NCBI GenBank assembly: GCA_937958645.1
Contig: CALGNI010000004.1
Location: 1 to 33,398 of the forward strand
Source: Candidatus Absconditabacterales bacterium
GTDB taxonomy: Bacteria; Patescibacteriota; Gracilibacteria; Absconditabacterales; Absconditicoccaceae
Direction of reading: 5' to 3'
Length of the DNA stretch: 33,398 bases
Position numbers and translations under genes: made by a program. Shown in pieces: positions 1-30,987 of this stretch (its first letter is position 1; each line of letters starts with the position of its first letter). The notes beneath the pieces were generated by a model. The model saw only the letters and a program-made list of their open reading frames with translations. It did no database searches and was not told the DNA's origin.

Positions 1-1559
1 TATTCTTGTGGGTAGTTGCGTCGTCGAGGACTCCTTGGCTTTGTCGAGGACGGGGGTGGGCTCGGTAGTGGTGAGCCCAGTGTCATGTTGAGGAACAACC
101 GCGCCGCATCGCAACCAGCATTTCCACTCACAGCACCGTCGTCCCTCGGAACTAAGAACACGTATACACACGTTGTCACGTGTCATCGTACGTCATCGCA
201 ACAAAATCCATCATCCGATCGCGCGTGTCGGCAGCAGTATTCCACTGCAAAGTCAATGAGGCTTTCCGCTCCTCACTCATTCGCCTAGGCCGTAAATCTC
301 AGGTACCTCCTCGGTTCATGCAGTCGACACTCGCAACCGTCCCCAAGTCTGCGAATAGTGAGACATTCTGGTTATCCATCCTCCGTCTTTCGCGACGCGA
401 CCCCAATATCCCAACCAGGCTCCTGACGAGGACAGTACCCCCGATCTCCAGCTCGACGGCGAACGTTTCCAACGAGCTTCCCCTTTGGTTTCTCCCTCCG
501 GCATCTCCATCCCGAATTTACCAAGCCTGCTGCATACGAGCACTTCCGTGAGAATCCCCAGCACCCCTAATCTCGGGACCGCGGCCTTCGTCACAGCTAG
601 AATTAAAAATGAGGTTTCTGCTTTCAAACACGATGTTTTCTGCCCTTCGACTTCCTCGACCCCCCCGATGTATGCGGTCCCCAACTCTAGCACGACCTCA
701 ACTCGTATCCCTCTTCCTTTAACTTTCCTGACAATTCCCTCTTGCCTGGACGATGGCACTGTACGTCCCTCGACGTCAAAACCTGATGCGAAGTTTTCTC
801 CGGGTCGTGGGGGGCCTTCTTTCCTCCTGGCCGTTCTTCTCATCCGAATCCTTGACAATTCCCCCTCCATCCATGACATTTCCCAGCGGTCCCCCCTTGT
901 TCAGCCTTTCCTTCTCTATTCGGTGAACCTAACTAGGGTGACAATCTTGTCACCGGAAACGTACAACTATTTTCCTCATTTTTTGCGAGGGATCTACTGT
1001 TTTCACCTTCCTTCCCTCGTCAATCAGCTGGAGATCTCCGTCTCTAGAGGCGTCGCTCCCCTAGCGGATGTGACTCGCGTGTAGAAACACGACCAGTTAC
1101 ACTGTGCGCGAATAGGGCTTGCAAATCACTCGTCACGATCCTTTCGTTTCCAGCCCATTGAGACCACCAGGAGCACGTCATGCCGTAGGGGACGGAGGGG
1201 GACGACGGGTGGATTCCTGGAGTGCTCGGGTGGACTCTCGAGCAGCGTCGCCCGAAGTTGAATTTCGAACCGAGTAAAGAACCTAGCTCTCAGTGCGACA
1301 AGGAGTGGTCACAACAGTACGGCAAAGATTTTAATTTTACAAATCGGACACTAGGTCTCTGATGCAAATATCCAGCTTTCGGCCAAACTGTATTCGCATA
1401 CTCAGCGACTCGGTCTCTTACGAAATGACAAGGTCATTCAAAGACAGTACATTTATTGCAAATTCAATTACAGTCGTTGTAATTCACTACCGCTTAGTGA
1501 TAAAGACTTGCATTCGCTCAATACACCAGCAACTAGGGAGAGACCAGATCTCTTGACTC
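1..1559. other. Eukaryote-like stretch without a recognised gene
   Basis: This GC-rich stretch belongs to the eukaryotic part of the window. Several frames stay open for 90 to 200 codons on both strands (for example 316-879 minus and 485-1084 plus). None gives a protein family I recognise, and overlapping long frames on both strands are expected in GC-rich non-coding or decayed transposon DNA. No rRNA, tRNA or clear repeat unit was seen. Confidence 0.5.
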
Positions 1560-2824
1560 GGGTCTCGGCCGAGTAAATCCAGGGCACAACTTGCGCGGAA
1601 CTGACGCTGCATGAGATCGGCTCTTTTCTCTCGGTACCGCTTTTGAATGCGGAGTCTTCGCTCTAACTGGCTATTCTCAATTTGGCACCAGCGGTTCGTC
1701 AGCTGCTGGTACAAAGTCATGTCCTGTGCCCGCAGTGGCCTCCAACGAATGTGAAAATGGGTCAGACCGAGACACAGCCTGAACACTGGATCATAGTTGT
1801 TTTCCGACCACTTCCATTTTGTACCTACCACCGACCACAGTCCACACATGCGACCAAAAACATTTTCGACAAGAATGCGATCGCTGGAAATAGCTTTGTT
1901 CTCAGAAACCTCTCCAGAAGACAGGAACGCGCCAGGGCGATTTCGTTTCTGGTGTAAGACCCTGCAACATTTTCGGCGGCTCCTTGCTAGCCCTTGTCTG
2001 CCAAAATCGCCCACTGCCCCGGATATTCCTCTTCGAGGGGCCCAGAGTCTTCAATTGTAGCCTCATTCTCCTTTTTGCGCAGCGCGCGTCCGTGAAACCA
2101 CTGAATGTCCCTGAAAAGGACCAAATCAGAGACCGAACCAGGCTCATGCAAACTTGAACAAATCGCAAACCCGTTCAGCGTGACACTCACTTCGACTTTG
2201 TAGCCATAGAGTTTATGTTTGCCACTAGAATATTTTTTCCCTCCTCGAGGCTTCCAGACGGGCGAAAACAGGGTTGGAAGGTGACATCAGTGGCATACCG
2301 CGCCATGGGGTATTCTTTGAAGAGCTTGTTGTTTTCGGAAAGGGCTTTCATGGACCAACGTGTGTGGCGGTAAGTCACGTACTGTCCATACAAATGTTCA
2401 GAGAGGATTCGAACGAAGCGAACAATCAATCGCTCAAAGGCGGGTGTCTTTTGGCCAAACATTTTGGCCAAAAAATCCCAGGTTCCACCATGTTTAAGAA
2501 CCGAAAGGGTCATGAACAGCACATCTTTTGGGCTTTGTATGCTTTTACGCCCCCTTCCCACATTGTAATTCTCCGAAATAAGGTTCTCAAACCCAGTCCC
2601 AATGCCGATAAATTGGGCTGGGTTACGTTGATCACTTCTATGATTGCGCAAGCCCCGCCCTGGTCGTAAAATTGGTCGAAAATGGGCGAGTCGGAGCCGT
2701 TGTCCTCGTCGCTGTCATCGGGGCGCTCTGCTTCGTAGAGCTCGAGCTCGTTCCTTCGCTCAATTGCGGCGGTGGATAGCAGTTGGAGAGTTTTGGCTGC
2801 CTCTTGTGCGGAGAAGGTGGCCAT
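1560..2824 (-). pseudogene. Decayed DDE transposase, PIF/Harbinger-like (DDE_Tnp_4 type)
   Basis: Read on the minus strand, three frames join into one transposase. An acidic N-terminus starts at the ATG at 2824. A second frame (about 2640-2240) has NVGRGRKS and ARYATDVTFQP, the latter carrying the first catalytic Asp. A third frame (about 2240-1987) has SGKHKLYGYKVEVS and then WAILADKG with the second Asp. A fourth frame (about 1970-1560) has SSDRILVENVFGR with the catalytic Glu. The D-D-E order and spacing match eukaryotic Harbinger-like endonucleases such as those common in oomycetes and fungi. At least three frameshifts (near 2600, in the A-run near 2240, near 1970) and a TAG where the family has Tyr after ADKG show that it is dead. 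The 3' limit is uncertain. No terminal inverted repeats were identified. Confidence 0.75.
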
Positions 2825-3713
2825 CAGGGAGTGCCGAGTGTCCTGCTACGCTGGTGGGTGATGGTGGCCGGGCTCGCTTTGGTGGTTGCAGACTGACGTT
2901 TATACGAAATGTCCAGGTCATTCGCGCAATGACCCGGCTATTTCGGTATTTTTTCTCCCGCGTCCTCGCACTACTGTTGTGCGCAGGAATTTAACACGTA
3001 TTTGTGCATGCGTGCTTTGTATGCAGTAATTAATTTCTTTTCTCGATCTACAGGGTGTATGAAACTTCATTTGATCATAACGAGTTTAGGACTGCCTTTT
3101 TATCGCATGATTGAGTCTCTTACATGTCCCCCCTTATTTCCGTAAAGGGTCTACTGTGTATTTCGACCAAAGGAACATCATTTTGTCTCCCACCTGGTTC
3201 TGTCGTCGAAAGGGGTCTTGTGCTTCGCGCGCGCTGCTCTCTGTACGATCGGAGAGCGGGATTGGCGCGCGGGGAAAAGGGAGTGGATGTGATGAGGAAG
3301 GAATTAGAGAAGGGGGAGTGAGTGGTGGAGACGAGAGGGGGGGTGATCCGGTGTCGTGCCTTCTCGTGAGAACGGGCTCCGGCTGATTGCCTTTGCGGAA
3401 AGAGTTGCGTCGTAGCGTGCACGTTTGCTTTATTGTTCTACCTCGCGCGTAGGGAACGCGGTCGTGCGTGTAGTACATATAGGTCCGGGTAAGCTTGCTG
3501 TCTGTGGGGACGGTAAGCTTACAGCCATGTTCCGTAAGCGCGCGCTCGTAGACCTAGATCGCAACTACGCCGTACAGTGCAGTAGTCTATGTGCGCGTGA
3601 ACAGCACACGCGCTCGTAGACCTAGCTAGCACTTACGCAGTACAGTAGTGTATAGGAGCGCGTGCGCGACACTCCCTCCTATGGGCGTCGGACCGTCGGG
3701 AGATCACAGCGTA
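2825..3713. other. Eukaryote-like intergenic stretch with a tandem repeat
   Basis: No convincing gene. Short open frames exist on both strands but match nothing I know. The left part is G-rich around 3290-3345, and the right end holds the duplicated segment listed separately. Confidence 0.4.
3541..3664. repeat. Imperfect tandem duplication, about 57 bp unit
   Basis: CGCGCTCGTAGACCTAG starts at 3541 and again at 3609. The two copies (3541-3599 and 3609-3664) stay alignable through the TACGC.GTACAG and TAGT.TAT segments to a final GCGCGTG. It lies just upstream of the decayed ORF at 3714 and may be a promoter or element-end repeat. Its function is unknown. Confidence 0.7.
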
Positions 3714-5186
3714 ATGGCGCCACAGAGGAAACGGAAACGCAGAGGTGGTCAGCGCCACAAGCCTCAGCAGCGCCAGCAGGAGGGAGCCAGCCAAGGAAAC
3801 GCGCAGTCGCCGTCGCCTCGTAAGCGAGCACCCCGTGTTCAAGTTCCCCGCGCCCAATCCACTCGCGTTTCTAATCCCTGCGTCCCTTCGCCCCTCGTTT
3901 CCCCGCCTTGCCTTCCGTCTCCGACGCTGTTGGAGACCTATTCTTGGCTGCGGTCGACACCGTCTCTCGTTTCGTCCTCCCGTGCCTCGTCTCCGCCCGC
4001 CCCGTCGTCCCACAGTGTGTCATCCTCTGCCACGTCGTCTCGTGCTCCATCTTCGCGGGCCCCGTCGTCCCACAGTGCATCATCCTACGCCACGTCGTCC
4101 CGTGCCCCATCACTTCACGGTGACCGGCCTCAGACGCCGCCAAGCGCGCCAGGGACTGGTTCCGCAAGGCGCGCTACGGTCGATGCGTCCACGGCAGCCA
4201 GGACGGAGGAACCTCTGTCCAGGATTGCGCTGTTGGCCAGTTTTCCTGGGTAATTGAGTGCCCCGTCCGCGGTTGCAAAACCAACTGTTGTGTACGAGGC
4301 CGCAGGGAGGTGGGTGGTAGAGGTCATGGTTGTTGGGGAAGGGGAAGCCGTGGCTGGTGGGGCCAGGGGGATGCCGGGCGTGCCGCATGCGAGCGCGCAG
4401 GGCAGTGCCCCGAGGGAGGCGTTCCACGCTGTGGAGTGGGAGGCCAGCATCTTCGCGGGTGTCAGTGAGGGGGAGATCACCTTGCAGACGTACCCGTTGC
4501 CCGGCTCGCAGGCTGCAGAGCGCATCCGACCATGGCCGCCGTGCATTGTTCCAGCCTGACTTAGGGCTGTGTCCAGGCAGCCCCGAGAGGAGGACGTGTC
4601 CAGGCAAGTCATGGCCTTCATGCGGCAGCATGGACGGGTAGTGGTCCGAGTGTCCGGTATTGGCTCACGGGAGGCGGTGGCGTGGCGTGCGTCGACCCGG
4701 CGACACCTCCCGGGGCAGCCAAGATGCACTGCAAAAACGCACGACTGCGTGAAGGCGGCCGTCATCAACGCCGCGTTTGCCTTCGGTGAACTTGTGGCAG
4801 CAGAAGCGTTGGAGAGGGAGGTAGCCAGGGAGTCGCGGGTAGTCCACAACTTCAGGCCACTCGCGGATATGTTCTGCAGGGCGCATGAATCGGTGACGGT
4901 CTGTCGCGTGGGTCGTGACGAGGAGATTCAGAGGGCCATCCAGTGCGGTGATAGGGCAGCACCCTTTCGCGTACTTGCAGGCAGGAGAACTGGAGTCTTC
5001 ATTGTGCGGATCCAAGAAGAAAAGCGCGTGGATCACGCTGTCGTGGTGGATGCTCGGAATGGGGTCATCATCGATTCAGAGGAGCCAACGGCGCTTGCGC
5101 TTTCGGTTGAAAACCTTGGTAGGTGCGGAGGGGACAGTGCGTTGAAGCTTCGAGTGATAGAAGTGCGAGAGGTAAGGGGTAGATAA
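3714..5186 (+). pseudogene. Decayed eukaryotic ORF: basic Arg/Ser/Pro N-terminus, C-terminal cysteine-protease-like domain
   Basis: One plus-strand frame runs from the ATG at 3714 to TAG at 5186, broken only by TAA at 4251-4253 and TGA at 4557-4559. The N-terminus is basic (MAPQRKRKRRGGQRHK). It is followed by a Ser/Pro/Ala-rich region built partly from a 60 bp tandem repeat. The last 206 codons look like a real folded domain: a Cys in KTHDCVKAAVINA, a His in RVDHAVVVDARNGVIID and an acidic/Asn residue just after it, the order of a papain-like Cys-His-Asp/Asn triad. Similar small Cys-protease-like ORFs occur in oomycete repetitive DNA, but I cannot name the family. It converges on the copia fragment, whose stop is 47 bp away. 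The domain call is inference. Confidence 0.45.
3999..4118 (+). repeat. 60 bp tandem repeat, two copies
   Basis: CCCGTCGTCCCACAGTG occurs at 4001 and 4061, and the following bases keep the 60 bp period to about 4112. The unit is 20 codons long, so it keeps the reading frame of the surrounding ORF and encodes Ser/Ala/Pro-rich sequence (APSSHS.SS.ATSSRAPS). Confidence 0.75.
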
Positions 5187-5232
5187 GGGGAGTAAAGGTA
5201 GCTGCTGGGTGGGAGAAGAAAGGGAGCTTGGA

Positions 5233-6130
5233 TTAGTTGCGAATGATCCACTGCTCAGGGTGAATCGCGAGCATTCCCGTAGATACAGCAGCTTGTAGTG
5301 CAGCTTGTGACATAGACTTGGTCAGGCCGTCGGCTATGTTATTCGAGCTGCGAATAAATCCAATGTCTGAAATAACCTTGTCGCCAAAACCTTCCCGGGC
5401 AGCTCCAATATCCAACATAGTGCGCTTCTCTGACGTCCTTGACCCCTTCGAAATTACATCAAAGAGTGACTTAGAACCGGCGAGCAGCTGGACAGGGATG
5501 CGACGGCCGTAGATATCGCCGAGTTCAGAGGCGAGGGTGGCGGCGATGTCGAACAGATCACTGAAAGCGATGACCTCCCCAGCCATGGCGGAGCGGACAA
5601 CCCGTTTAGACATGTAGGACTTGAAGCTGATCGGCACGGAGCGACTATGGCCATCAGTAAGGAAGCAAATATGGCCCAGCTGGGTCGACAGGTCGTGGTT
5701 GTTGGCAAACGAGGCGTCGGCAAAGCCTACGACGCCAAGAGATTCTTGATCAACGGCGGCGATCTTGAGGGAGACACGGTGTTCTGCGGCGTATCGCGTC
5801 GCTCTGTTGAGACGGCGGACAATTTCAGGCTGCTCCGGAAGATAGCGGTCCTCGTTGACCTGTGCAGGTTGAGATATTTCAAACTGGCAGTCCGGGCGAG
5901 TATTTACGAGCCATGCAAGTCTCATGCGCATTGACCGAAACTCTGAGAAGGACGCGTCGAGATGGAGACGCTCCAGCTTCTGCAGATAGAAGTGCTGGTT
6001 CTGTTCCAGACTTCCATCCTTGCCGCGTGCAAGCGAGAAACCAGAAAAGGTGCAAGGTATGTGCTCGTCCTCGCCCATCTGGAAGCGCTCGTTGGTCTTC
6101 TTTGCCAGTTGAAGGAAACGAGGGGAACCT
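5233..6130 (-). pseudogene. 3' end of a Ty1/copia pol gene (RT tail and RNase H), truncated
   Basis: The minus-strand frame ends at TAA 5233-5235. It gives a reverse-transcriptase tail (PCTFSGFSLARGKDG, LAWLVNTRPDCQFEIS) followed by a copia-type RNase H domain. Diagnostic blocks are VGFADASFANNHDLSTQLG (catalytic Asp), AMAGEVIAFSDLFD (catalytic Glu) and NIADGLTKSMS near the end. The frame has no stop from 5235 up to the junction. The beginning of pol, the integrase, gag and both LTRs are missing because the contig switches to bacterial DNA near 6130. Related copia elements are known in fungi, oomycetes and algae. The sequence alone does not decide the host. Under the standard code this stretch is intact, so it may come from a functional element. 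Confidence 0.85.
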
Positions 6131-6145
6131 GCGCATGGTTGTGTT
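6120..6145. other. Junction between eukaryotic and code-25 bacterial DNA
   Basis: On the minus strand the bacterial frame reads TCVWDVTGTQP, with the Gly encoded by TGA at 6145-6147. It passes directly into the copia frame PRFLQLAKKTNERFQ without a stop. Both motifs are recognisable right up to about 6136 and 6123, so the switch lies between them. There is no repeat, target-site duplication or element end. Base composition changes from GC-rich to AT-rich at the same place. Confidence 0.8.
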
Positions 6146-7908
6146 CACGTCACATCCCAGACACATGTTGTTTCGTTAAACGTTGCTGTTTCGTAACATT
6201 CTATTGTCGGAGGAATATTTGGATCCTCCGCTCCACATACATTTGCTACACATTGAATAACTGGTGTAGGCAGCGTACATATAGGAGTACAATCTGAACA
6301 TCAAGATGGAAGATTAGACAAATCACATGTATTTACACAACTATTAGTTACCGTTACACTATTTTCTATTCAATCTCAATTATAATCTACTAATTGATTA
6401 TTCGCGTTACATGTGTCATTAATACTTTCTGAACATGTATTATCTGCACACAAAGCATCATCCGGCACCTCATTACATTCTCATCTGTCACATACACCAG
6501 TAGTACATACATATTCATCCTCAACACATGGGTCACCTTGTGGATCAGGCAACTCACATTCTTGATCATATACTGAAACAGTTTCTACGCATGATTCCGA
6601 TCTATCATCACAGATAAATGTTGTAAATGTCACCTCTTGAGTTCATAGCAGATCACATGCATCTCATCCTGGATTTGGGATACATTCTGTTGTTTCTTCA
6701 GTATTATCTCCACATCTGGATCAATCAGGACCAATATATGTACATCACACATCTCATCATGGTGCAAAACATGGCGGACAACTTGATCATCACGGACTTC
6801 AAGTGGGAACACAACATAATGCTGTTGGTCATGCTCATGAACATACTCATGATACAGGTGGGCCAAATCCAGTACAAACAGAACATGGATCTCTACTGCT
6901 ATTACAATTAAATACTGGATCTCATCCTTGAGTCACTCAGCAGGTATTCGTATAATTAGGTGCAGAACAATTGTATGCAATTGATCCTCATCCTCATACT
7001 GAAAATTGGCATGCATATGTTACTCAAATTCCTCAGGAAGAATCTAGTGAAAAATTTGTAACAATATCTCTATCTGGAACTCAATTTATACATATAGCAT
7101 TTGGGTTACTAGTATATTGATTGGTCGCAAACTGTAATCATCTTCCATCATGAATATCAATCAAAATTTGTTGATCTCATTGCGTTGTAGGAAAAGGCAG
7201 TTCGATTTTTACTGGTGGGCCATCGATCAAAACATGACTATCAAATCAATCTCATAGATTTGATTCAATAGCGGCATTGATTTTAAATCAAGGATTGCTT
7301 GCTTCAAAATTAACAAAAATTTGATCAGACAAATTTGCTGGCCTAATATCAATCTCTGCAGCTTGTAATTTTTCATTTCACCTAGTTGATTTTATTATCG
7401 TATCTTTCTTAAATTCTATTGCATATGATCAATCTTTCAGAGCTAAAGAATTTTCAACATACAGATCTGTTGATGATTGGTTTGCTAAAGGAATTATTTT
7501 TTCTGACAATATTTTCTTGGAGTCTAAAAAATTTTCATTTGAAAGATCAATTTGTTGATAAGCCGATATTCTCAACTCATCACAAATTCAGCAAAATAAT
7601 TCACAAGTTTTAGTTCTAGATCAAGGCAAAGATAAACATGATGGTACACATACATCCCCTCATGAGGTTTCACAGAAACTCTTGAGAGTTTTATTCTTCT
7701 TCTGATCAAATCAATCACATGATCTTTGCACTAGTCATGTACTAAAATCAATTTTTTCAGAAACACGACATGCATTCTCTGCAGCTTCTTGATATTGAGC
7801 AACAGCTGTCAATGAGAGAAATCCTGACATCAAAAGCAGCACAAGGAATGTAGTACGTGTGAAAAGTCATCATAATGGTCTAAGAAAATTAATTTTTGGA
7901 AATCACAT
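6131..7908 (-). CDS. Secreted Cys-rich protein, 3' end missing
   Basis: Reading TGA as Gly, the frame is open from ATG 7908 to the junction, about 592 codons. The N-terminus is a signal peptide: a basic stretch, then FLVLLLMSGFLSLTAVA with likely cleavage before Gln. The first 300 residues have scattered Cys (CVPSCLSLPG, CELFCGICDE) and a beta-rich region I do not recognise. From about residue 330 it becomes very Cys-, Gly-, Asp- and Asn-rich (GDPCVEDEYVCTTGVCDRG). It ends with CYETATFNETTCVWDVTG, a repeat unit known from very large secreted or adhesin-like proteins, especially of Bacteroidota. More units probably followed. A surface or adhesion role is inferred. The start was chosen because it precedes the signal peptide and follows a terminator. 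TGA encodes dozens of glycines, including adjacent pairs. Confidence 0.75.
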
Positions 7909-8051: not shown

Positions 8052-8960
8052 TTACCCAAATAACCCCAACTGCTTCCCCCCACTTATTTCATTTTTGAGC
8101 TCTTTGATCGATTTTTCGAGTCTAGAAAATTTCCACTCGTTGACCAACACCTTGTGTACATGGGTAAAATCTAGAGAAATATTTGCATGTTCCAGGTCAT
8201 ATCATACGAGATCTGGAACTTCCATCAGCTGAATCAATTGTTTAGAGTCATAAGCATTCTTTTTTCATTCTTTTAGCTTCTTATACGTTGCTCCAGTAAT
8301 TTCATCCAAGTGAGCATAAATCTCATCCAGACCCCCGTATTCTTTTATCAGCTTCGCAGCTCACTTAGCCCCTATTCATGGGACTCACTTTATATTATCT
8401 GCAGCATCACCCACCAGGGCAAGAAAATCAACGATCAAAAGTGGCTCATAATCATGCTCCAAGATAAACCTCTCCACATTCGTCTCCTCATCCTTCATCC
8501 CATCATACACCACCACCGTATCACTCAGCAGTTGCTTCAGATCTTTATCAGATGAAACGATCTTATATACCAGATCTCACTGAGCACCTGATATCAGTGG
8601 ATTTGGCTGCACCAAAGTACCGATAATATCATCAGCTTCATATCCAGGCGCTTCGAAATACGGTATCGCACACTCCTTCACCAACTGTTTGATACTTCAC
8701 ATCTGATACCCAAATTCATCCGGCATCTTCGTTCTATTCGCTTTATATTCAGCAAACTGTTCTTTCCTGATGGTTTGCTTTGGACTATCTCGCGCTATCG
8801 CAAAATATTCTGGATTTTGTTTGAGCAAAGTAAATAACATACGAAAAAACCCATAAATCGCTTGCACCGGGCGACCTTGTTCATCCTCTAGTGGAGGCAT
8901 ACCATAGTACGCACGAAACACAAATCCACTACCATCCAATATCGTAAACGTCTTTTTCAT
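8052..8960 (-). CDS. 5'-3' exonuclease (DNA polymerase I N-terminal domain, stand-alone)
   Basis: A 302-residue protein of the FEN/PolI 5'-nuclease family, which removes RNA primers and 5' flaps during replication and repair. Visible blocks: TILDGSGFVFRAYYGMPP at the N-terminus, IARDSPKQTIRKEQFAEYKANR (the usual D.K..TFR...YKA.R block), YEADDIIGTL near residues 106-115 and SSDKDLKQLL. The helix-hairpin-helix region VGDAADNIKGVPGIGAKGAAKLI also matches the family. The protein stops after this domain; no polymerase domain follows. At least seven Gly codons are TGA, including those in KGVPGIGAKG. ATG 8960 was chosen because the family starts at this point; the frame upstream has no similarity. 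It is divergent from the VC0807-like gene, with 156 bp between. Confidence 0.9.
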
Positions 8961-9052
8961 GTCCCAAATTAGAAATAAATTCGTATACACAGTATACTGA
9001 AGTTCAATGATAGTAAAACTCAAGAAAAGAGAAATTGTAGAAGGAGAATTAC

Positions 9053-9083
9053 CCGTCATCCTGAACGCAGAGAAGGATGACGG
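9053..9083. repeat. Perfect 10 bp inverted repeat in a divergent intergenic region
   Basis: CCGTCATCCT (9053-9062) and AGGATGACGG (9074-9083) are perfect inverse copies around an 11 nt loop. TAATTTT follows on the plus strand. The position, 34 bp before the start at 9117, makes a terminator odd unless it ends a short transcript. An operator, a 5'-UTR hairpin or a dispersed repeat are alternatives. It resembles the GTCATCCTGA...AGGAT repeats scattered in many bacterial genomes. Confidence 0.7.
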
Positions 9084-9116
9084 TAATTTTAAACTTTAAA
9101 CTTTCAACTTTAATTT

Positions 9117-9788
9117 ATGTCCAAACAACAGCTCCAACGACTCTCCATCCTGATCAACATATTCATTCCTATGATCGTGTTAACCAAATTTTCTGGTGAA
9201 GCGCAATTGGGTACTACTGGATGACTCATTGTAGCACTATCCTTTCCTCTTTTATACTGAATATGGGAACTTTGGAAAGAAGGAAAACGAAGTTTCATCT
9301 CATGACTTGGACTGTTTTCGGTCCTTATGACCTGATGAATTGGTTTACTCAAACTTCCTACACAATGGATAGCAATCAAAGAAGCCATGGTGCCCGCTAC
9401 GATCTGATTAGTACTGCTATGATCAATGTATACTGGTCATAATCTCATCGAAAAACTCTTCCTATGAATACTAGACACTGACAAGATCTTCTCAAAACTA
9501 GAAAACAAGATGCACCATCGGCATGATTGAGTAAAAAAACTGAGCCGACGAATCATAGGGTCATTTGCATTCTCTACAGTTCTAAACTACTTACTTGCTA
9601 GCTGGATTGTCGTGAGTCCATCTGGAACTCAAGCATTCAATGAAGAAATATGAAGACTCACTGGTCTGAGTTTTCCTGCGATTGCATTACCTTCGACACT
9701 AATACTAACAGCAGCGCTAATGTTTTTCTTGTCAAAAATGTCTACTGAGACATGACTCGAAATTGAAGACATGATCAAGAAAGAATAA
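9117..9788 (+). CDS. VC0807-like integral membrane protein
   Basis: A 223-residue protein with about five to six hydrophobic segments, starting MSKQQLQRLSILINIFIPMI. Its sequence of motifs (an N-terminal helix ending in FSGEAQLG, PLLYGIWELWKEGK, then a helix, then KEAMVPATIGLVLLGS and a C-terminal two-helix region) matches my memory of the VC0807 family, membrane proteins of unknown biochemical role. About ten glycines are encoded by TGA. The ATG at 9117 follows the inverted repeat at 9053-9083. The stop TAA is 80 bp ahead of the secreted MopE-like gene. Family assignment is moderately sure; function is unknown. Confidence 0.65.
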
Positions 9789-9807
9789 AAATGGTCGAGA
9801 TATACCA

Positions 9808-9835
9808 TTGACTACACAAGAAATATACTTAAAAT
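9808..9835 (+). promoter_or_regulatory. Candidate promoter of the MopE-like gene
   Basis: TTGACT (9808-9813), a 16 bp spacer and TAAAAT (9830-9835) fit a sigma-70 promoter. It is about 33 bp ahead of ATG 9869 and lies in the 80 bp gap after the previous stop. A Bacteroidota-type -7 box (TAnnTTTG) was not seen. Confidence 0.45.
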
Positions 9836-9868
9836 ATAAAACTTACAGTCACCTTTAAAATACATAAT

Positions 9869-11548
9869 ATGAAAAATTTACTACTAATGATTTTCCTAAT
9901 ACTAGGAAATCACTTTTCTTACTCACAAGAAGTTCAGAGGGACACCCTAGAAATACTACTTACAGAAATAAGTAGCCAGGCCAGCATACCTCAAAATCGA
10001 TATCCATATATCGAAAGTAATGTCAGAGAAATATTAATGACAATGCTACTCAAGGAAAATAATGAATCGTGCGAAGAGTGTTTTCCAATAATGAAAATAA
10101 AAGACACACTCAATATTAACATTAATGATATTCCAAGTAGTTGGAATGAAGTAAATCTTGTATCAGCCATGAATGCTAATGGATTTCCAGGGTTATTCTA
10201 TTTGAATGACAGAGTAATTGCTAAAGCCAGCATAACTAGACCCAAGTTTGTACTATTACATCTAAATGAAAGTAATTGGACAACTTTTGGCTCAGTGTTT
10301 GCTCCTTTATCTGCAGCAGTAGATCCAGATTATATCGATTATGGGTATTTCAAGAGCGATAATTCTGAATCAGATGAAGATTACTTAGCCTTGTGTCAAA
10401 GAATTGCTAGCGTGATTGCTCGCTCTAGCTATTCCTTAATGGATGGATTGCTACCAAGCGAATATGCGTGGCATGATGGACTTCCGGATATGGTCATTGT
10501 AAATGGAGATACTATTTCCTGCAGTCTTATGCATCCTCTAGCTCCCTCCCATCCAGAATGGGTCAATCAATACGCAAAAGATAGTTCGAGCTATTTTGCA
10601 AGAACAAACAGACTTCATGGGCAAAAGCAAATTAATGAGAAAGAGCATATTACGTATATTGTTGCATATGAGGATAGTGATGGCGACGGATTCGGAGACA
10701 ACTCTGGTGATCCCTCTAAGATCCATAGTGGTTGCTCAAATAATACACCTAATGGATTCGTAACTAATGCAACAGATTGCAACGACAATGCTTTTCTTAT
10801 TAACCCAAGCACCAATGAAGTATGTGACAATGTCGACAACGACTGTGATGGGATGATTGATGATAGTCTTACTCTTTTCACATATTATCAAGATCTTGAT
10901 AATGACGGAGATGGAAATATTGACTCAGTCTTAATAACTTGTTTCGCAGAACCAATGCCAGGGTACTCGAGAGATAGTACAGACTGTGATGATCGAAACG
11001 AATTCATCAATCTAAACTATAAAGAGATTTGCGACAATCTTGATAATGATTGTAATGGAATTGTGGATGACAATATCGATACTTATACGTACTACATTGA
11101 TTCAGACAACGATGGATTTGGCAATCCTACACTGCCGTTTGATACATGTGCAATTTCATTGATCATGGAAGGAATCTCTAATAATAACAATGACTGCGAT
11201 GACACCAATCCTGACATCAACCCAGCTGCCGAAGAAATTAACGGCAATGGGATAGATGAAAATTGTGATGGAGAAGATGGACCAAATAGCAGCTCTTATC
11301 TACTCCAAGAAAATTCAATCATCATAAGTCCAAATCCAACCACTGAACACATAACAATCACTGCTGCCTATCCAGAATATATACAAGACATTAGCATCAA
11401 TTCTACAGGTGGTAAATTCATGGACTTACTACCTAGATCTACTACAGAATTTGATCTAGACTACAGGTATCCACTTGGAGTATATTTTATTACCATAACA
11501 TATACTACCGGTGAAAAAATCAACAAGAAAGTAATCAAAATACAGTAA
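9869..11548 (+). CDS. Secreted protein with MopE-type Asp/Cys repeats and type IX sorting tail; acquired gene
   Basis: 559 residues. A signal peptide (MKNLLLMIFLILGNHFSYS) precedes about 250 residues of unrecognised sequence. From about residue 269 come three repeats of the putative metal-binding MopE type: DSDGDGFGD with EVCDNVDNDCDGMIDD, then DLDNDGDGN with EICDNLDNDCNGIVDD, then DSDNDGFGN with EEINGNGIDENCDGED. The last 75 residues (IIISPNPTTEHITI ... PLGVYFITITY ... KKVIKI) form a Por/type IX C-terminal sorting domain, a Bacteroidota trait. Unlike all neighbours, none of its roughly 40 glycines is TGA, so it reads identically under the standard code. It carries its own promoter and terminator. 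Recent transfer from a Bacteroidota host, prey or neighbour is inferred; a second assembly error is the alternative. Without a type IX system, the tail would be non-functional here. Confidence 0.9.
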   Translation: MKNLLLMIFLILGNHFSYSQEVQRDTLEILLTEISSQASIPQNRYPYIESNVREILMTMLLKENNESCEECFPIMKIKDTLNININDIPSSWNEVNLVSAMNANGFPGLFYLNDRVIAKASITRPKFVLLHLNESNWTTFGSVFAPLSAAVDPDYIDYGYFKSDNSESDEDYLALCQRIASVIARSSYSLMDGLLPSEYAWHDGLPDMVIVNGDTISCSLMHPLAPSHPEWVNQYAKDSSSYFARTNRLHGQKQINEKEHITYIVAYEDSDGDGFGDNSGDPSKIHSGCSNNTPNGFVTNATDCNDNAFLINPSTNEVCDNVDNDCDGMIDDSLTLFTYYQDLDNDGDGNIDSVLITCFAEPMPGYSRDSTDCDDRNEFINLNYKEICDNLDNDCNGIVDDNIDTYTYYIDSDNDGFGNPTLPFDTCAISLIMEGISNNNNDCDDTNPDINPAAEEINGNGIDENCDGEDGPNSSSYLLQENSIIISPNPTTEHITITAAYPEYIQDISINSTGGKFMDLLPRSTTEFDLDYRYPLGVYFITITYTTGEKINKKVIKIQ

Positions 11549-11613
11549 CAAAAGTTATTTACTTTTGTATGAAGAAGACGTGATTAATCGGTTATACTAA
11601 TAATCGGTTTGCA

Positions 11614-11648
11614 GCAATACTCAGTGATGAGTATTGCTTTTTTTATTA
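11614..11648 (+). terminator. Rho-independent terminator of the MopE-like gene
   Basis: GCAATACTC (11614-11622), loop AGTGAT and GAGTATTGC (11629-11637) form a perfect 9 bp stem, followed by TTTTTTTATTATT. It lies 65 bp after the stop. The T-tract overlaps the last codons of the convergent DUF1801 gene. Confidence 0.9.
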
Positions 11649-12098
11649 TTTTTTTCTTGAGTTCTCATAGATCTGGATCCACTGCTGCACAGCAATCTTC
11701 GAAGCCAACTCACCTATCAACTCATAAGGAATTTCTTCTATTTTTTTAAATCTTATACAACTCTTTCCCATATTGGGTTTCTTTCACATATTCTGTTTAT
11801 AACTCCTTACGAACCACTCCAATAATTTAGGATCAGAATACACACCCATATGATACACTGCTATAGAGCTTTTTTGATTTGCAAGATTCATGAAGGGCAA
11901 AGGCAGCGATGGGTCACAATGATATCCATCAGGATAGATACTATGAGGCACTACTCGACCTATCATTCCATAGTTTATGCATTCCTGGAATCAAGTTGGG
12001 ATATTCTCATTGATAGCTTTTCTGAGTTTCTCCACTGCTTCTTTTCTTTCTGGAGATACTTGATCGATATACTCTTGCACGGTAATAATATTGGACAT
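11646..12098 (-). CDS. DUF1801 domain protein (YdhG-like)
   Basis: 150 residues. MSNIITVQEYIDQVSPERK is followed by FQECINYGMIGRVVPHSIYP, LPLPFMNLANQKSSIAVYHMG and a conserved GKSCIRFKKIEEIP block near the C-terminus, in the order typical of DUF1801. The fold of this family is known, but no firm biochemical role is. Only two glycines are TGA (in IPTGFQE and NMGKKP). ATG 12098 is the first start after a long gap and agrees with the family length. It converges with the MopE-like gene; its TAA lies in the T-tract of that gene's terminator. Confidence 0.85.
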
Positions 12099-12181
12099 GA
12101 CGAGCAAATAACTATAAAATAAAATATACTATTGCTTCCATCTCAAAAATCAATTATCATCCGAACATTTAATCCAAAAAG

Positions 12182-12206
12182 AAAAAAGAGACGTAAGTCT
12201 CTTTTC
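12182..12206 (-). terminator. Terminator of the PiT-like gene (symmetric, may work both ways)
   Basis: AAAAGAGAC (12184-12192), loop GTAA and GTCTCTTTT (12197-12205) make a perfect 9 bp stem with A- and T-ends, 51 bp past the stop at 12257. The symmetric ends would let it act in either direction. Confidence 0.8.
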
Positions 12207-12256
12207 TCAACACATCAGGTTCTGCTAACTTTTACTTTTTACTTTCTACTTTATTC

Positions 12257-13240
12257 CTACCACCCACTCACTGCCCCAACTCCAATTGCCAACCCTACAG
12301 AGATAATCAAACCAAAGAGCACCTTAGCAAAATCCTTCAGGATCATAGGAAAGACGGTCCTGATTGCTTTACCATGGAGTTTGAAGTGAGAGAGAGCCAA
12401 TTCTCTACCAGCCAACAATCAAACAAACACCCAAGTAGTAGACATCGGGATACTATTTAGTTCCTTAAAATACAACAAAACGCACGCGTAGATGAAATCG
12501 ATCAGTGTCGCTGCTTTTATATAATCTGTTCATGATTTAGATGAGACGATGTTTTGTATCTTTCCTCCCCTTTTCCAGAAGATATAAAACAATCATGCTA
12601 CGATAATCACCAGCGTGAAAATAAGATACTCGATTCACATCTGACGTGGAAGATATACTGCGATATTCGCCATATCATGCATCAACCATACTGATCGGAG
12701 ATATCATGTAGATAATCGCTGAAGATACCTTCGATTGATATGATCACTTATTCGATCATACCACCCAAATTTAGATTTTTCCTTCACTATTTTTTCATAC
12801 AATCATACGATAGCAAATCGAAGCACATAGGCCACCAGAAAGGCAATCGCATATCACAGCATACTCTTACTCACCATCTTTGTTATCGTACTACTGGTCG
12901 CGAAGACACTCAAAATAAGTAATGAAGTACTCACAGGAATTCCATATCTGGTCAAGAGCAATAATCACAATGGCGCTATTGCATGCCAAATAGTGAAGGC
13001 CTCAGGCAAATCGATACCCTTAGTTGCTAATCTCCCTCGTGAAATATCTCCACCATTTACCACTCGACTATAAGCAATAACCACCACCGCTATCACACTT
13101 GCTGCCGTAGCAAGCTTTCGTCGAGCAGTTTTCTTATTTGATTCTAAAAATGTTCCCAATGTCTGAATACTGTCATTTGCAATTACCGAATACGCCGCCA
13201 AAGTAAATCAAATAATCATAAAGATAAAACTCCAATCCAT
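12257..13240 (-). CDS. Polytopic membrane protein, PiT-like inorganic phosphate permease
   Basis: 327 residues with about eight hydrophobic segments. Near the N-terminus YSVIANDSIQTLGTFLESN resembles the GANDVAN..GTSVGS signature of PiT transporters. Near the C-terminus NSIPMSTTWVFVGLLAGRELAL resembles the second, inverted repeat, with its PVSTT-type loop. Together these suggest a cation-coupled phosphate transporter. A basic middle section (KEKSKFGWYDRISDHINRR) would be the cytoplasmic loop. TGA glycines occur throughout, including in membrane helices. ATG 13240 starts the first helix directly. The 120 bp gap to the preceding gene makes a shared transcript possible. The permease type is inferred from motifs only. 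Confidence 0.6.
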
Positions 13241-13360
13241 ATTTTTTTGTAAGATAAGAAAAATAAAAGCACTCCCTTCCCTATAGCAATGTAATGCCGA
13301 TCTTCAAGTATTTACACGAAAAATTACTAATTCATATATGTCTATAGGCTTTTACCAATT

Positions 13361-14797
13361 CTACTTCTGCAAATACAACATCTTCACATTATCAACTCCA
13401 GCACGAGAACGATCGTCTGTATAGATCTGTTTACTTACAGAAACTGGCGTATATCAAGTAAATTCGCGATTCAACACCATGACATTATCCAAAACAGATC
13501 AAGGATTACCCGTTACATTTTTTGATCGAAGGGATCAGATTCATGCACCCATAGTACTCAATGATGATTGAGAAAAATCTGATTCGAATGAAGGATCTAA
13601 GATCATATTCGCCGCAATCACACCCCCTTCAGTCAACAAAGCACTAACATCTTCAAAAAACTCCAAACTAACAAGCTCTTCTGGCACAGACTTATCATTA
13701 TAAGCATCCAAAAAGATAAGATCAAAACGTTCTCATTCTTTTTCAAAATCATAAATAACTCCTCTCGCTGAGCGGGGAATAAATTCTATTTTACTCTCTA
13801 GTGATTCATTGAAAAAATACTCTTCCGTTATTCTTTTCACTGACGGATCTATGTCGACAGCAACAATGTCTTCAACATATTGTCTACTTGAAAGTAACTG
13901 CGGATAAACAAATCACGCGGCGCCGATAATCAATACCTTCTTAGGTTTGACGATATCGCTGATGCGAAGTATTTCATTGATATACTTAAAGGGTGATTCA
14001 TCTTCTTGATCATCAAGATAAATAGCAGATGAATATGCTCCATTTGTAGAAAAAACACGAATTGATTTTCCTTTACTTTCTGCATCATACACTTCTATTT
14101 GCTGGTATGCGCTATCAAAAGAATACACCACTGATGTTCATTGCTGATTGAGTAAATACCAACTTGATAAAAACACTCATAGCAAGAAGCTCAATAAAGA
14201 AAGCTTCTTTTTGGATCTATACAAGACAAATGAAGACAGAAAAATAAGTCAACATCACACCAACACTCATGTCATACTCACTCATATCTTTTCAAACAAG
14301 ATGATACTGGTTACGGTACTCCCAAAGAAAGACCCTACAGTACTAGCAAACAAGATCACTCCTGCAGCTTTTCCTTTTGATGGTTCATCTAGAAGATCGG
14401 TCAATAAGGGTATCGTATGAGAAGCAACAAACACAGGGAGAAAAAACAAGGCTCAGGCCACTACGAACAGTGTCAAAAGATATGATCAGCTCGATTCTAT
14501 CATAAACTCCAACAGCTGACGCTCCCACGCAAAAGAAATCAGTAAGTACCACACTCCAGCAAACAACAATGATCACCCCAATGCCACTACTCTTTGGTGA
14601 GTATTCATCTTACTAGAAAGCACTCCACCACTTCGATATCAAGCACTCAGAGCCAATAACACCACTCACAAAAATACCGAAGTAAGAACGATACTACTTC
14701 CTACCACAGGGATAGCGATTCTCATAGCAACAATCTCCACCGCCAACGTAGAAAATCATTCCAAAAAAGCGACGAGATAGATAATTCGCAAGGGCAT
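13361..14797 (-). CDS. Membrane-anchored spermidine-synthase-like protein (fused MFS/spermidine synthase type)
   Basis: 478 residues. The first half has about seven to eight hydrophobic helices (FSTLAVEIVAMRIAIPVVGS, TIPLLTDLLDEPSKGKAAG), as in the transporter-like half of fused spermidine-synthase proteins. The second half is a Rossmann methyltransferase-like fold: KKVLIIGAAGFVYPQLL near residues 286-302, VEDIVAVDIDPSVKR with the acidic nucleoside-binding residue, then DLIFLDAYNDKSVPEEL. Aminopropyltransferase activity is not proven; many such fusions have no known substrate. TGA encodes the last Gly of IIGAAG. It is divergent from the membrane protein at 14935, with 137 bp between. Confidence 0.8.
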
Positions 14798-14875
14798 AAC
14801 TACATAGATTACTAAAAATATTATTCTTATCCTATTATAATCATCCTATTTTGCAAGAAACAGATATGAAAAAAC

Positions 14876-14904
14876 TTGACGAGAGTCTAGCAATTATATA
14901 GAAT
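14876..14904 (+). promoter_or_regulatory. Sigma-70-like promoter for the membrane protein at 14935
   Basis: TTGACG (14876-14881), a 17 bp spacer and TAGAAT (14899-14904) are near consensus. The predicted transcript start is about 25 bases before ATG 14935. No Shine-Dalgarno sequence is visible between them. Confidence 0.6.
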
Positions 14905-14934
14905 TAAGTATCTTTTAATTATCAGAACCATCTC

Positions 14935-15561
14935 ATGCAAGAAATTCTCTTCTTTCCTAGTGTCATTAGATCAACAATCAATATTTGGTTATGAATTTAT
15001 TCTATCATAGTCCCCATTATAATTCTAATACTGACAGTTTCACATCGAAAAAATATTTTATGAGCAGTGAAATTATTTCCCAAAAGCAGTATTACAACCT
15101 GGTCATCTATTCTAGAAATCGGAAAATATATATCTTTACTTCTCTCTCAACTCTACAAAAAATGTAGCTGGCTTTTTATCGGAGTCTTTCTTACTTGAGG
15201 TTGATGGTTCGTTGTCAGTAGTATATTTTTTATATTTCATAGCACGAAATCAAATATAGATGAAAAATTTGATAAAAATTGAAATAAAGATGTGCTAGAA
15301 CTTTTTCCAGAAGTCAGTGAAAAATTAGATATAGCAAGACTTTTAGAACCAGAGTATATTTCACTTATTGAATATAATTCGGGAATTATATCATTATTAC
15401 TCCTTACGTTGATTATAATAGCTTGAGCATTTTATACACTTTCGTTTTGAAACAAAACTTGGAAAGCAATCTGATCAATCTTTCTAGCTCTCACATTTTT
15501 GGCACTCATTTTTTCAATGGGATATCGAGAATTTTGACTACAACTTAAAGCAATGATTTAG
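14935..15561 (+). CDS. Membrane protein of unknown function
   Basis: 208 residues, not recognised. It begins MQEILFFPSVIRSTINIWLG and has four to five hydrophobic segments: two near the N-terminus (IIVPIIILILTVS), one around residue 85 (LFIGVFLTGGGWFVVSSIFF) and two near the C-terminus (IISLLLLTLIIIAGAFYTL, SIFLALTFLALIFSMG). An acidic soluble loop (DKNGNKDVLELFPEVSEKLD) lies between, probably outside the membrane. Seven or more glycines are TGA, so no standard-code ORF longer than a fragment exists here. ATG 14935 fits the promoter at 14876-14904. It stands alone between two minus-strand units. Confidence 0.75.
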
Positions 15562-15721
15562 AAACAGTGTTGCAACTCCAACCACTGCTTCGCGAGACTA
15601 GACGCGCTTTGAAAATTAATAACTTCTGCTTACATTCTTTACCTTTCGAAAGAGTTAAAATCCAGATTGCAACTCCAATATATGCTCGCTCCTCGCATTT
15701 GTCACGAATTACGCCGTTAGA

Positions 15722-15756
15722 TTTCTAGAAAGAAAATTATATTTTCTTTCTAGAAA
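15722..15756 (-). terminator. Strong hairpin over the stop codon of a gene-end remnant
   Basis: TTTCTAGAAAGAAAAT (15722-15737) and ATTTTCTTTCTAGAAA (15741-15756) pair perfectly over 16 bp with a 3 nt loop. It is AT-rich and has little T-tract, so it may stabilise or process RNA ends rather than terminate strictly. Confidence 0.55.
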
Positions 15757-15776
15757 CCACTCTGTAGTTCTAACAT
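15750..15776 (-). pseudogene. Remnant of a duplicated ABC-transporter 3' end (MLELQSGF-stop)
   Basis: On the minus strand 15776-15750 reads M-L-E-L-Q-S-G-F-TAG. The neighbouring ABC gene ends with exactly the same eight residues before TAA (15864-15838), using different codons (CTA/CAG/GGT here, CTT/CAG/TGA there). Each stop codon lies in the first arm of a hairpin. This looks like the tail of a second ABC gene copy whose body was deleted. The few codons upstream (RGSDKQIRRI) no longer match clearly. Confidence 0.5.
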
Positions 15777-15810
15777 AATCCTACGGATTTGCTTATCGCT
15801 TCCTCGTTGT

Positions 15811-15844
15811 ATTTTAATTTTGAGATTTCATCTCAAATTAAAAT
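15811..15844 (-). terminator. Hairpin overlapping the ABC-transporter stop codon
   Basis: ATTTTAATTTTGAGAT and ATCTCAAATTAAAAT pair around a TTC loop with one bulged base. The TAA of the ABC gene (15838-15840) is inside the stem. The following minus-strand bases are AT-rich but not a clean T-run. Confidence 0.55.
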
Positions 15845-17610
15845 CAACTCTGAAGCTCTAACATCTTAGCGTACTGTCCACCTTTAGTCACCAACTCATC
15901 ATGAGTACCTCTCTCAACAATCTTTCATGCCTCCAGCAAGATGATGTCATCAGCCTCTTTTACTGTCTGGAGTCTATGAGCGATAATTATTACCGTACGA
16001 CCTTCGAACAAGCTATGCATCGCTTCAGTTATTCATTCTTCTGAGAACGAATCAAGAGCTGATGTTGGCTCATCTAGGATAATGATTTCTGGATCCTTGA
16101 GAAAGATTTTCGCAATAGCTAATCTTTGTCTCTGACCTCAGGATAATCTAATTCCTCTTTCTCCTATCTCTGTTTGCAGACCATCCTTGAAGTCATAAAT
16201 AAACTCACATTTTGCATTCTTTATTGCCTGATCAACTTTCATAAACACATCACTATCCTTTGCTTCTTCATATGACACGTGATCCACCAGTGAATAGGTA
16301 AGATTTTCTCGTACTGTGCCATCGAACACACTTGGTTCTTGGGTGAGGTATCAGATATTTTGATAATAACTTTTCAGTGAAACTTCAGAAAGATCTTGTC
16401 AATCCACAATGATTGAACCCTTATCTACTCTCAAATATCCAGCAATCAATTTCACCAAAGTAGTCTTTCCTGAACCTGAAATTCAGACTAATGCAGTTTT
16501 CTTTCATCATGCAATCGTCAATGAAAAGTCTTCAAAAACAACATCACCTTCAGAATATCAAAATCAAATTTTTTTGCATTCAATCACTCATTCACTTTGT
16601 ATAAATTCTTTTCAACTTTCTAATCATTGGATCACTGGAGTTTCATCAAAGAAATTTCGTAATCTATCTATATGAGTAAAGTTTTTACTCAAGGTTTGAA
16701 ATTTACTAGTAGCTGATAACATTAGCTGATTTAAGTACCCCGTCATTGCTACCAATCAAGTAAATTGAGCAAAATCAAACGTTCAACCTATATACGAACT
16801 GTATGAGTAAAACATAATTAATATCACTAACGCAGTAACTAACAATAGAGGAAGATTAAACATTCATCGAAGGTATGTATTAACTTTTTTATTATATACT
16901 TTAGCTTCATCTCGAATCGATTCTTGCTTTCTTATCTCCATTCAAAGTTTATTTGATGAGAGTATCTCCATCTTACTTTGCAGAACACGAACAAATAATC
17001 TAGAAAAGGCTTCTTCATTTTCTTTACGCAATCTTCTTCGATGATTTGCAAATCAATCAATATGAATTACAATCAAAAAGCACAAAAACACTAGTAAGAC
17101 AAAAGAAGCAATATAAATACCTCCCATACTCGAAATTAAGTATATCGTAAACAAAATCTTCATAACAAGCTCTATCAATGAATAACTTATCGTATCAAGA
17201 GAGTCCATTTGATAGAAAATACCTTCCTTGATAATACTAATCAATTTCCCTGTTCATACTCTTTCTATATGGGTATTATCAAGTGATATGTACTTATTAA
17301 AATACTTTGAAAATAAATACTTTGGACCAAATCGTTTTATAGTTACCCATCATGAGTGTTTAGCAAATCGCTTTCGAACATACATACAAACCACCACAAT
17401 CAGATATATTGTTAATGCGCGAGGAATAGATGACGTTTCCCCTGATTGAAAACTAGCCGCAAGTTTTTGTAAAGTTAGAACTGTATAAATATCAAATATA
17501 TAAAATGTCGAAGCAACTAGCGTTGCCCTAAAATATAACCATGGATGAGCCATAGCTGGCTCAAAAAACCTCTTCACTATCTCCCCAAAACTTCTTTCCT
17601 TTTTTTCCAT
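15838..17610 (-). CDS. ABC exporter half-transporter (membrane domain plus ATPase)
   Basis: 590 residues. An N-terminal membrane domain with about six helices ([55 protein letters not shown]) is followed by a complete nucleotide-binding domain. Seen there: Walker [15 protein letters not shown] near residue 388, Q-loop [10 protein letters not shown], signature [13 protein letters not shown] near 470, Walker [14 protein letters not shown] and H-loop IIIAHRL. TGA encodes the first Gly of both Walker A and the LSGGQ signature. It follows the ABC gene at 17713 after 102 bp and is in the same frame, so the two probably form a heterodimeric exporter. Substrate is unknown; peptide, lipid or drug are all possible. 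ATG 17610 is the only ATG in the linker frame, but the frame is open back to 17713. Confidence 0.9.
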
Positions 17611-17640
17611 ACTTCGCAAATCATAAAAGACTCTTTCTCT

Positions 17641-17712
17641 GTTTCTCTTTTTCTCTTTTTCTCTGTTTCTCTTTTTCTCTTTTTCTCCATTTCTCTCTTT
17701 CTCTTTTTCTCC
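17641..17712 (-). repeat. Three 24 bp purine tandem repeats between two ABC genes
   Basis: On the minus strand three 24 bp units (17712-17689, 17688-17665, 17664-17641) read [G/R]EKEK[K/E]RN in the frame shared by both ABC genes. The tract is pure GA apart from a few C and T. It lies where a ribosome site for the downstream gene should be. Confidence 0.85.
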
Positions 17713-19467
17713 CTACTCCTGCAACTGATACTTCTCCCACATAGTAGCAAACAGTCCTTTAGAATCTAGCAAATCTTGCAAACTTCCTTCTTGCACGATG
17801 TTTCCCTTCTCCATCACATACACATAATCAAACAGTTCTAGAAGATGTAACTTATGAATACTAGAAACAATACATGCATCAGCATAGTTAGAAAGAATCG
17901 CTTCATAGATACTTCTTTCGTTTACACTATCTACAGAACTCGTCGGTTCATCCAGCAACAGTATATCACTATCTCTGGCTACCATGAGCCCACGACACAA
18001 TGCCAACCTTTGTTTTTGACCTCCAGAGAGGTTCACTCATTTTTCTTTGATGTCAGTATCTAAGCCATTAGGTAAATCTTTAAGTACAGTATCAAATTGA
18101 GCGATCTTCGCGATACGCATCAGCTCTTCATCTTCGATCTCCAGTCACATCGCAATATTATATCTGATCGTGTTTTCAAAAATCTCAGGTTCTTGTGGAA
18201 TCAGTGAAGTAATATGAGCGAGTGGATGAAGGTCATGGTAGCGTTTACCATCAATTTTCATCTCCACGCTATTTACATCATACAGTCATCTAAGTAAACT
18301 CATCAAGGTACTCTTCCCACTTCCACTCTCTCCCACCAATGCAATTTTACTTCCAGGAATCAAATTTAATGAAAGATCATTCAACGCACTTGTCTTTTCT
18401 CCCTTAGCATAAGCAAACTTCAGATCGTCTATCTGAATAGACTTTCGCGCATGAAGCAGATCAATTTTGTAAGTATCGGCGAGGTTCTTATATTCAGATT
18501 CAACATCATCCATTGCTTCCATATCAGCTTTTTTCGTAACGATTCATGAATACTGCCGGGTGAAGTTTTCCAATGCCTGATTCATTCTTTGTGCATATTG
18601 AAACAACATTGTGAAGGTCCCGATCATCACTACTCACGTTGTCATAAACTCTTCATGAACATACATTCATAAAATCAATGCAATCACGATAGCCATCAAT
18701 ACATCCATACTCAACCACTTCCATTCGTTCAATGTTCTATACTTAAGAAATATTGGTAACACTGCTTGGATTTTTGTGTGCAGTACTTCCTTTGCTTTTC
18801 ATTCAAATCTCAAAGTAATCAGTGTCTTAATATTAGATAAAAAATCAAAAAGACTGCTCATCACGAGATGCTCCTTTTTGTTTTTTTGTTTAATCATCGG
18901 GACTAGATAAGAATCAAATCGCAATACGATCGTGAATATCACGATTCAAAATAGAAGCATTATTGCTGCTGCCTTCCATCGAATTCATGCCAGAGCTACT
19001 ACAGAACCAACTGAAAATACGATTGTATTTAGATACATATGAGTATTACCAGAATATTCTCTCAAAGCATACATTGCTTTATTGATTTTATCTATTGTGG
19101 ATCAAGTATGATTATCATTTTGCCATTTCATAGGCAATGAAGTAACTTTTTTAAATGAATCCAAGATATATGCTTCCGAGATATCAAATTTCATTCTCTC
19201 TTCCCAAACACGTGATAATCCATGAAAAACTCGAGCCAATAAGCTCACTCACACAAAGGAAAATAGGTACACACGAATCTGTCCCCATCATTCAGCTCAG
19301 TTTATTTGAATTTCGTTTACGATCTGCCCCAGCAACCAAGGCTCTATCAATCGAAGCAATTTTGAGATTACACTAAAAATCAAAATGATAACAACCATTC
19401 CTTTCTTGGGCGCATAGTTTCGCATCTTGCGAAACATAAAAATATACGGTGTATCTTTTCGACTCAT
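17713..19467 (-). CDS. ABC exporter half-transporter (membrane domain plus ATPase)
   Basis: 584 residues, starting MSRKDTPYIFMFRKMRNYAPKK. The membrane domain covers roughly residues 25-310. The ATPase has Walker A ALVGESGSGKSTLMSLLRG (about 379-387), Q-loop LIPQEPEIFEN, signature NLSGGQKQRLALCRG (about 479-493), Walker B DILLLDEPTSSVDS and an H-loop His in VSSIHKLH. All catalytic positions are present, so it should hydrolyse ATP. It ends in TAG. The partner gene continues in the same frame after a charged linker. It is divergent from the exonuclease gene at 19925, with 457 bp between. Substrate unknown. Confidence 0.9.
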
Positions 19468-19494
19468 AAATACTATCTCAAATAAATTTCTTTC

Positions 19495-19662
19495 TTAAGG
19501 AAGCTCTGAAATAGCTCATATTTCAAGAAACAATTACATCTCATGAATATGATCAAAAAATGAATTAGCTTATTTAAGCTTCCTCGAGGAGCCGTGAAAA
19601 ATGAAATAATCGAAAATAATAAAAATTCTTTTCAATTCTTTAATTTTTCAGAGGCTCCTTAA
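19495..19662. mobile_element. Possible MITE-like fold-back element or structured RNA
   Basis: TTAAGGAAGCTCTGAAA (19495-19511) and TTTCAGAGGCTCCTTAA (19646-19662) are inverted copies matching at 15 of 17 positions, both ending in TTAA. The middle (AGCTTCCTCGAGGAGCC, 19578-19594) can pair with each end. GGAAGCTCTGAAATAGCT pairs with AGCTTATTTAAGCTTCC, and GGAGCCGTGAAAAAT pairs with ATTTTTCAGAGGCTCC, giving two adjacent long hairpins. No ORF is inside. A small non-autonomous transposon with TTAA ends or a non-coding RNA both fit. Confidence 0.45.
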
Positions 19663-19674
19663 TTCTATATATAT

Positions 19675-19735
19675 AGATACGAATTTGTCAAAAACTGTGA
19701 CTTTTTTCTTGTCTTATCTCAAAATTCTCGTATCA
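19675..19735. repeat. Inverted repeat in the same intergenic region
   Basis: GATACGAATTT near 19676 and AAAATTCTCGTATC near 19721-19734 are inverse copies apart from a 2-base insertion. Inside is GTCA...TGAC followed by six T. The rest of the gap to 19924 holds AT-rich sequence with repeated TAATTTACC/CTAATTCATC words and no gene. Confidence 0.5.
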
Positions 19736-19924
19736 ATAGATTTGCTATTAGGAGTTGAATAATTCATCACAAAATACTGATAAGATACATAATGATTACC
19801 GTCGAAGCAAGCTTCTTGGTATTCTTTCTTCGAAATAATTCGCCACCAACAGCATTATTCTAATTTACCTAACTTGCCTAATTCATCTAATTTACCCAAT
19901 ATATTTAATCTATTATCCCAATTC

Positions 19925-20941: not shown

Positions 20942-21069
20942 AATAGTAACTTGGTGTTCTGGTATATTAGTAAGTTGGTGTTCTGGTTAGTCCAATATAC
21001 TAATTTACGAATATACCAATGTACTAATATACCAATGTACTAACATACTAATTTACTAACATAATCACC
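20942..21069. repeat. Short direct repeats between two plus-strand genes
   Basis: AGTAACTTGGTGTTCTGGT (20945) recurs with one change at 20969. Then ATACCAATGTACTAA occurs at 21013 and 21029 with a 16 bp period. The words resemble those in the gap before 19925. No gene or terminator is clear here. Confidence 0.75.
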
Positions 21070-21828: not shown

Positions 21829-21836
21829 TATTATCA

Positions 21837-25358: not shown

Positions 25359-25425
25359 TTCGATAATTCATTAAAACGTATGGAGCATACACTTTTTATA
25401 TCACAAACACAGAGAATTAACGAAT

Positions 25426-25444
25426 GCGCGGTCGGTGACCGCGC
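25426..25444 (-). terminator. GC-rich hairpin between the CHAP and PBP genes
   Basis: GCGCGGTC (25426-25433), 3 nt loop and GACCGCGC (25437-25444) form a perfect 8 bp stem just after the CHAP stop at 25450. It is unusually GC-rich for this region. The minus-strand tail is only ATTCGTTAATT, so it may attenuate rather than fully stop transcription into the PBP gene. Confidence 0.65.
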
Positions 25445-25449
25445 TTTCA

Positions 25450-27333: not shown

Positions 27334-27516
27334 AGGAGAAAGAAAATAAACTACTTCTTAGTTGAGGGACACTCACTGCATGGAAATCATGCTTGTCATC
27401 AAGGACACTAAAGAAATATTTATAATAATTGAGAATGGAGGATGGATAATTGAAAATTAGTCATCAATTACCAATTCTTCATTATGCTATGTACTTAATT
27501 AAGAATCAAATCAAAT

Positions 27517-28798: not shown

Positions 28799-28861
28799 GC
28801 TAGAAGTTTACGTAATCATTATAGTTGCAGGGATATATATATCTTAGGTAATGCGTAGAAT

Positions 28862-30970: not shown

Positions 30971-30987
30971 AGTAAGACATGAGCATG

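Follow-up and report, generated by a model that had tools for sequence, protein, structure and literature searches.

A reading frame that joins two kinds of DNA

The window analyzed here, a complete contig of 33,398 bp (C4) in a draft bacterial genome of 105 contigs (G000; 91.5% completeness and 4% contamination), contains an open reading frame that starts as a repetitive bacterial protein and finishes as what reads like part of a eukaryotic retroelement. Does this frame record the transfer of a gene or a fault of assembly? On the minus strand, 7908..5233 is open throughout under genetic code 25 and encodes 891 amino acids and a stop, which is the in-register frame of 892 codons that a first-pass annotation of the DNA had described. 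All 39 in-frame TGA codons lie at or to the right of position 6145 (the last is codon 588, at 6147-6145), and the copia-like part of the frame has none. The first-pass annotation attributed the shared register to chance, and we estimate that two such frames would agree in both strand and register about 1 time in 6; the shared register needs no explanation of its own.

The switch, first proposed to lie between the bacterial repeat and the copia reverse transcriptase (RT), can be located more sharply from protein content than from composition. A Markov change point fell at 6193-6236 (orders 1-3), with ranges within 4 nats extending over 6125-6300. The bacterial repeat ...TTCVWDVTGTQP (unit ECYETATFNETTCVWDVTGTQP) finishes at 6136-6138, and the matching unit in the sister genome G002 finishes ...VSGDQP. 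Past the repeat end, CAGSPRFLQLAKK... is presumably copia RT/RNase H on motif reading, and the residues that immediately follow the bacterial unit, CAGSPRFL, are also read here as copia-like. Based on the repeat end matching that of G002, the last TGA glycine codon, and this reading of CAGSPRFL, the joint can be placed at about 6134-6139 (Table 1). No direct or inverted repeats of at least 9 bp were found between the 200 bp to the left and the 200 bp to the right of the joint, so there is no sign of a target duplication. The first-pass annotation had listed an element end, a duplication, and a repeat as all missing from the joint; the lack of a duplication holds, but a bacterial repeat unit ends exactly there, and this unit is found in tandem in sister genomes. 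A search of IMG/VR for the exact junction pattern gave no match, and a search from the contig's own side of the joint found no shared k-mer able to cause the join.

Table 1. Features of the 33,398-bp window around the junction, with the evidence for each
Positions	Strand	Feature	Basis or remark
1..6135	.	Foreign GC-rich DNA at contig end, probably from a eukaryote	Composition; no second copy
1490..2845	-	Broken Harbinger/PIF-type transposase	PF13359 DDE_Tnp_4 in two frames; additional overlapping open frames hold the upstream part
3648..5186	+	Open frames, kind not assigned	Matched no family; oriented convergently to the copia-like frame
5233..6135	-	Copia-like RT/RNase H frame, 3' end	Motif reading; no family or PDB match
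6134..6139	.	Junction of the two DNAs	Last TGA-Gly (6147-6145); composition; repeat end compared with G002
6136..7908	-	Putative repetitive secreted or surface-type protein, N-terminal 591 codons	Code 25; truncated where a repeat unit ends
8052..33398	.	Code-25 bacterial segment	5'-3' exonuclease, ABC transporters, penicillin-binding protein, tRNA-Ser

Composition and genetic code on either side

Two compositions and two codes meet abruptly within this one contig. The GC content per 3 kb is 0.52 to 0.58 in positions 1-6000 and 0.34 to 0.39 rightward, where it stays near the genome value of 0.36, bearing out the description of the DNA left of about 6130 as GC-rich. A comparison of tetranucleotide profiles, proposed as a check by the first-pass annotation, also separated the two sides, with 1-kb pieces of 1-6000 lying 0.62 to 1.01 from the genome median (genome 1-kb mean, 0.33; standard deviation, 0.06) and the two 3-kb halves lying at 0.60 and 0.77. 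The window and about 1.52 Mb of other contigs were scanned in this way, covering more than 99% of the assembly (the small contigs C53 and C96 were masked), and no other 3-kb stretch exceeded a GC content of 0.445 or a tetranucleotide distance of 0.43. At 800 bp, the outliers were the rRNA operon on C38, the start of C16, an inner stretch of C21, and the end of C34.

Two of these outliers are contig ends. From position 1 to about 750, C16 (L022) carries a Tn3 transposase fragment (PF01526, 6.3e-12) with a GC content of about 0.49, cut in the middle of the gene against AT-rich DNA, and this start could be a second misjoin like the one proposed at 6134-6139, or an insertion that has decayed. The compositionally odd end of C34 (L040), at 4500-4921, includes a stretch that we take to resemble interspersed repeats of Proteobacteria, and the gene preceding it is presumably ribonucleotide-reductase-like.

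To the right of the joint lies an unremarkable stretch of bacterial chromosome in which UGA is read as glycine (code 25). From the exonuclease to 17619, the order of its genes is partly conserved in three sister genomes (G002, G003, and G004). The claim that every gene but one uses UGA in this way holds for the larger frames on this side, the exception being 9869-11548 on the plus strand, which encodes a 559-amino-acid protein carrying MopE repeats and, at its C terminus, a T9SS-type tail (the tail match is just below the Pfam cutoff). None of its 31 glycines is encoded by TGA, compared with roughly 25 to 70% of those in neighboring genes, and the flanking code-25 genes occur without it in sister genomes. 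This gene was probably gained recently from a standard-code bacterium, perhaps a member of the Bacteroidota. A similar TGA-free gene, also encoding MopE repeats and a T9SS tail, sits on C97 (L103; 988-2907, minus strand) between genes with 20 and 42 TGA codons, and a TGA-free frame of 951 codons resembling the same protein lies on contig C30 of G002 at about 2741-4666. Such genes are possibly a recurrent imported class in the genus.

The foreign piece

The left 6.1 kb is probably broken, transposon-type eukaryotic DNA in the standard code. This assignment to eukaryotes rests on a predicted Harbinger-type DDE transposase, recognized with Pfam, and on our reading of copia RNase H motifs. Matches to DDE_Tnp_4, a domain expected of PIF/Harbinger transposons, fall in separate frames at 1990-2286 and 1490-2050, with E values of 1.5e-6 (above the cutoff) and 4.5e-5 (just below the cutoff), and neither the Harbinger frame nor the 4563-5183 frame has a relative in IMG/VR. 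Thus, of the copia and Harbinger-like genes named by the first-pass annotation, the Harbinger-type gene was recovered by a domain search, whereas the copia-like frame matched nothing in Pfam, NCBIfam, or PDB sequences and was recognized by motif reading. The motifs ADASFANNHDLSTQLG, SAMAGEVIAFSD, and NIADGLTK are presumably those of a copia-like RT/RNase H, in which the usual TDSKS would be changed to AGSKS, with Asp replaced by Gly. RVT_2 was sought in 21 genomes, with no match over the cutoff, and structure prediction for the copia-like part from its sequence alone gave no usable fold (mean pLDDT, 33). Searches with the protein and its pieces in IMG/VR, GTDB contigs, phages, plasmids, and 380 genomes of the phylum, including this one, returned only the query itself. 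No second copy of the foreign piece turned up in its own genome or in 48 others of the same family, and the bin yielded no further contig from that foreign source.

The left piece could instead have come from some other foreign source, such as a GC-rich bacterium or a large virus, in which case the join would be no less artefactual, but we consider such a source unlikely. Broken transposase frames and few convincing genes in 6 kb speak against it, as do RNase H motifs that we take to be typical of Ty1/copia elements, even though DDE_Tnp_4 transposases occur outside eukaryotes too and the copia assignment has no confirmation from any library. The lack of any relative in IMG/VR or GTDB contigs speaks for such a source, but a bacterial one would more likely have shown relatives among GTDB genomes.

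The truncated bacterial gene

Cysteine-rich repeats and an N-terminal hydrophobic stretch suggest that the protein encoded by 6136..7908 is secreted or surface-type. In G002, a 3.3-kb contig begins with the matching repeat in tandem (PAAPATECYETATFN...), and in G003, a distant homologue of the cut gene is itself cut off by the end of a 214-kb contig, indicating that genes of this type tend to break assemblies. In its own assembly, the repeat was found in the window and nowhere else, and the true continuation of the cut gene is therefore missing from the assembly. We rejected C76 as the continuation because it carries a separate complete gene. At 9531-11687 (minus strand), C76 (L082) encodes a surface-type protein in which VEEVEE forms a long stretch of low complexity, beside other repeat proteins.

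Origin of the join

We conclude that the contig is very likely an assembly chimera and that the apparent fused gene is almost certainly an artefact rather than the product of gene transfer. The foreign piece lies at the contig end and starts inside an element, without a terminus, duplication, or second copy, and the joint falls where assembly would stall in a repetitive gene. Synteny of the bacterial side with sister genomes and the Tn3 fragment cut at the start of C16 also favor this reading; the lack of a shared k-mer and of another contig from the foreign source in the bin counts against it. In such a scenario, the assembler would have run out of unique sequence within the repeats of the bacterial surface-protein gene and then extended the contig with unrelated DNA, whose most likely source is a eukaryote in the same sample. 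The first-pass annotation had also favored a chimeric contig, and the uniqueness of the piece, its absence from 48 other family genomes, and the repeat gene at the joint strengthen that interpretation.

A real insertion of eukaryotic DNA, as a transposon cluster, into the code-25 chromosome, splitting the surface-protein gene, is extremely improbable: the joint is clean and the frame open across it, and genes free of TGA with code-25 neighbors on either side make uptake of foreign DNA plausible in this lineage, but the foreign piece begins within an element and extends to the edge of the contig, leaving a single boundary in the contig with no element end, target duplication, or repeat marking an insertion and no bacterial DNA on its far side, and the piece is unique, has a broken transposase, and is absent from sister genomes. 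The first-pass statement that nothing supports a real transfer agrees with everything that could be tested. Were the insertion true, it would give an ultrasmall bacterium eukaryotic DNA that carries a retroelement, of which there would be few examples. As an assembly chimera, the contig matters for databases only: its first 6.1 kb should be removed from the genome, and the chimeric 891-amino-acid protein should be kept out of protein families and not be cited as a eukaryote-to-bacterium transfer.

Comparison with known systems

The broken transposase resembles PIF/Harbinger transposases (PF13359) in its DDE_Tnp_4 matches in two frames but differs in that its frame is broken and, as read, would be nonfunctional. 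The copia-like frame appears to share with the C-terminal RT/RNase H end of Ty1/copia retrotransposon pol the order of RNase H motifs and a C-terminal NIADGLTK; unlike pol, it is truncated at the joint and has apparently lost one catalytic Asp. Misassembly is a source of chimeric contigs in MAGs, although a relatively rare one (GUNC, PMC8201837), and in a mock-community test chimeric sequence was always found at contig ends (PMC8172020). The contig described here resembles those chimeric metagenome contigs (PMC8172020; GUNC, PMC8201837) in having foreign sequence at the end of a binned contig and a repeat context, and it differs from them in its partner, which is probably eukaryotic and not a second bacterium.
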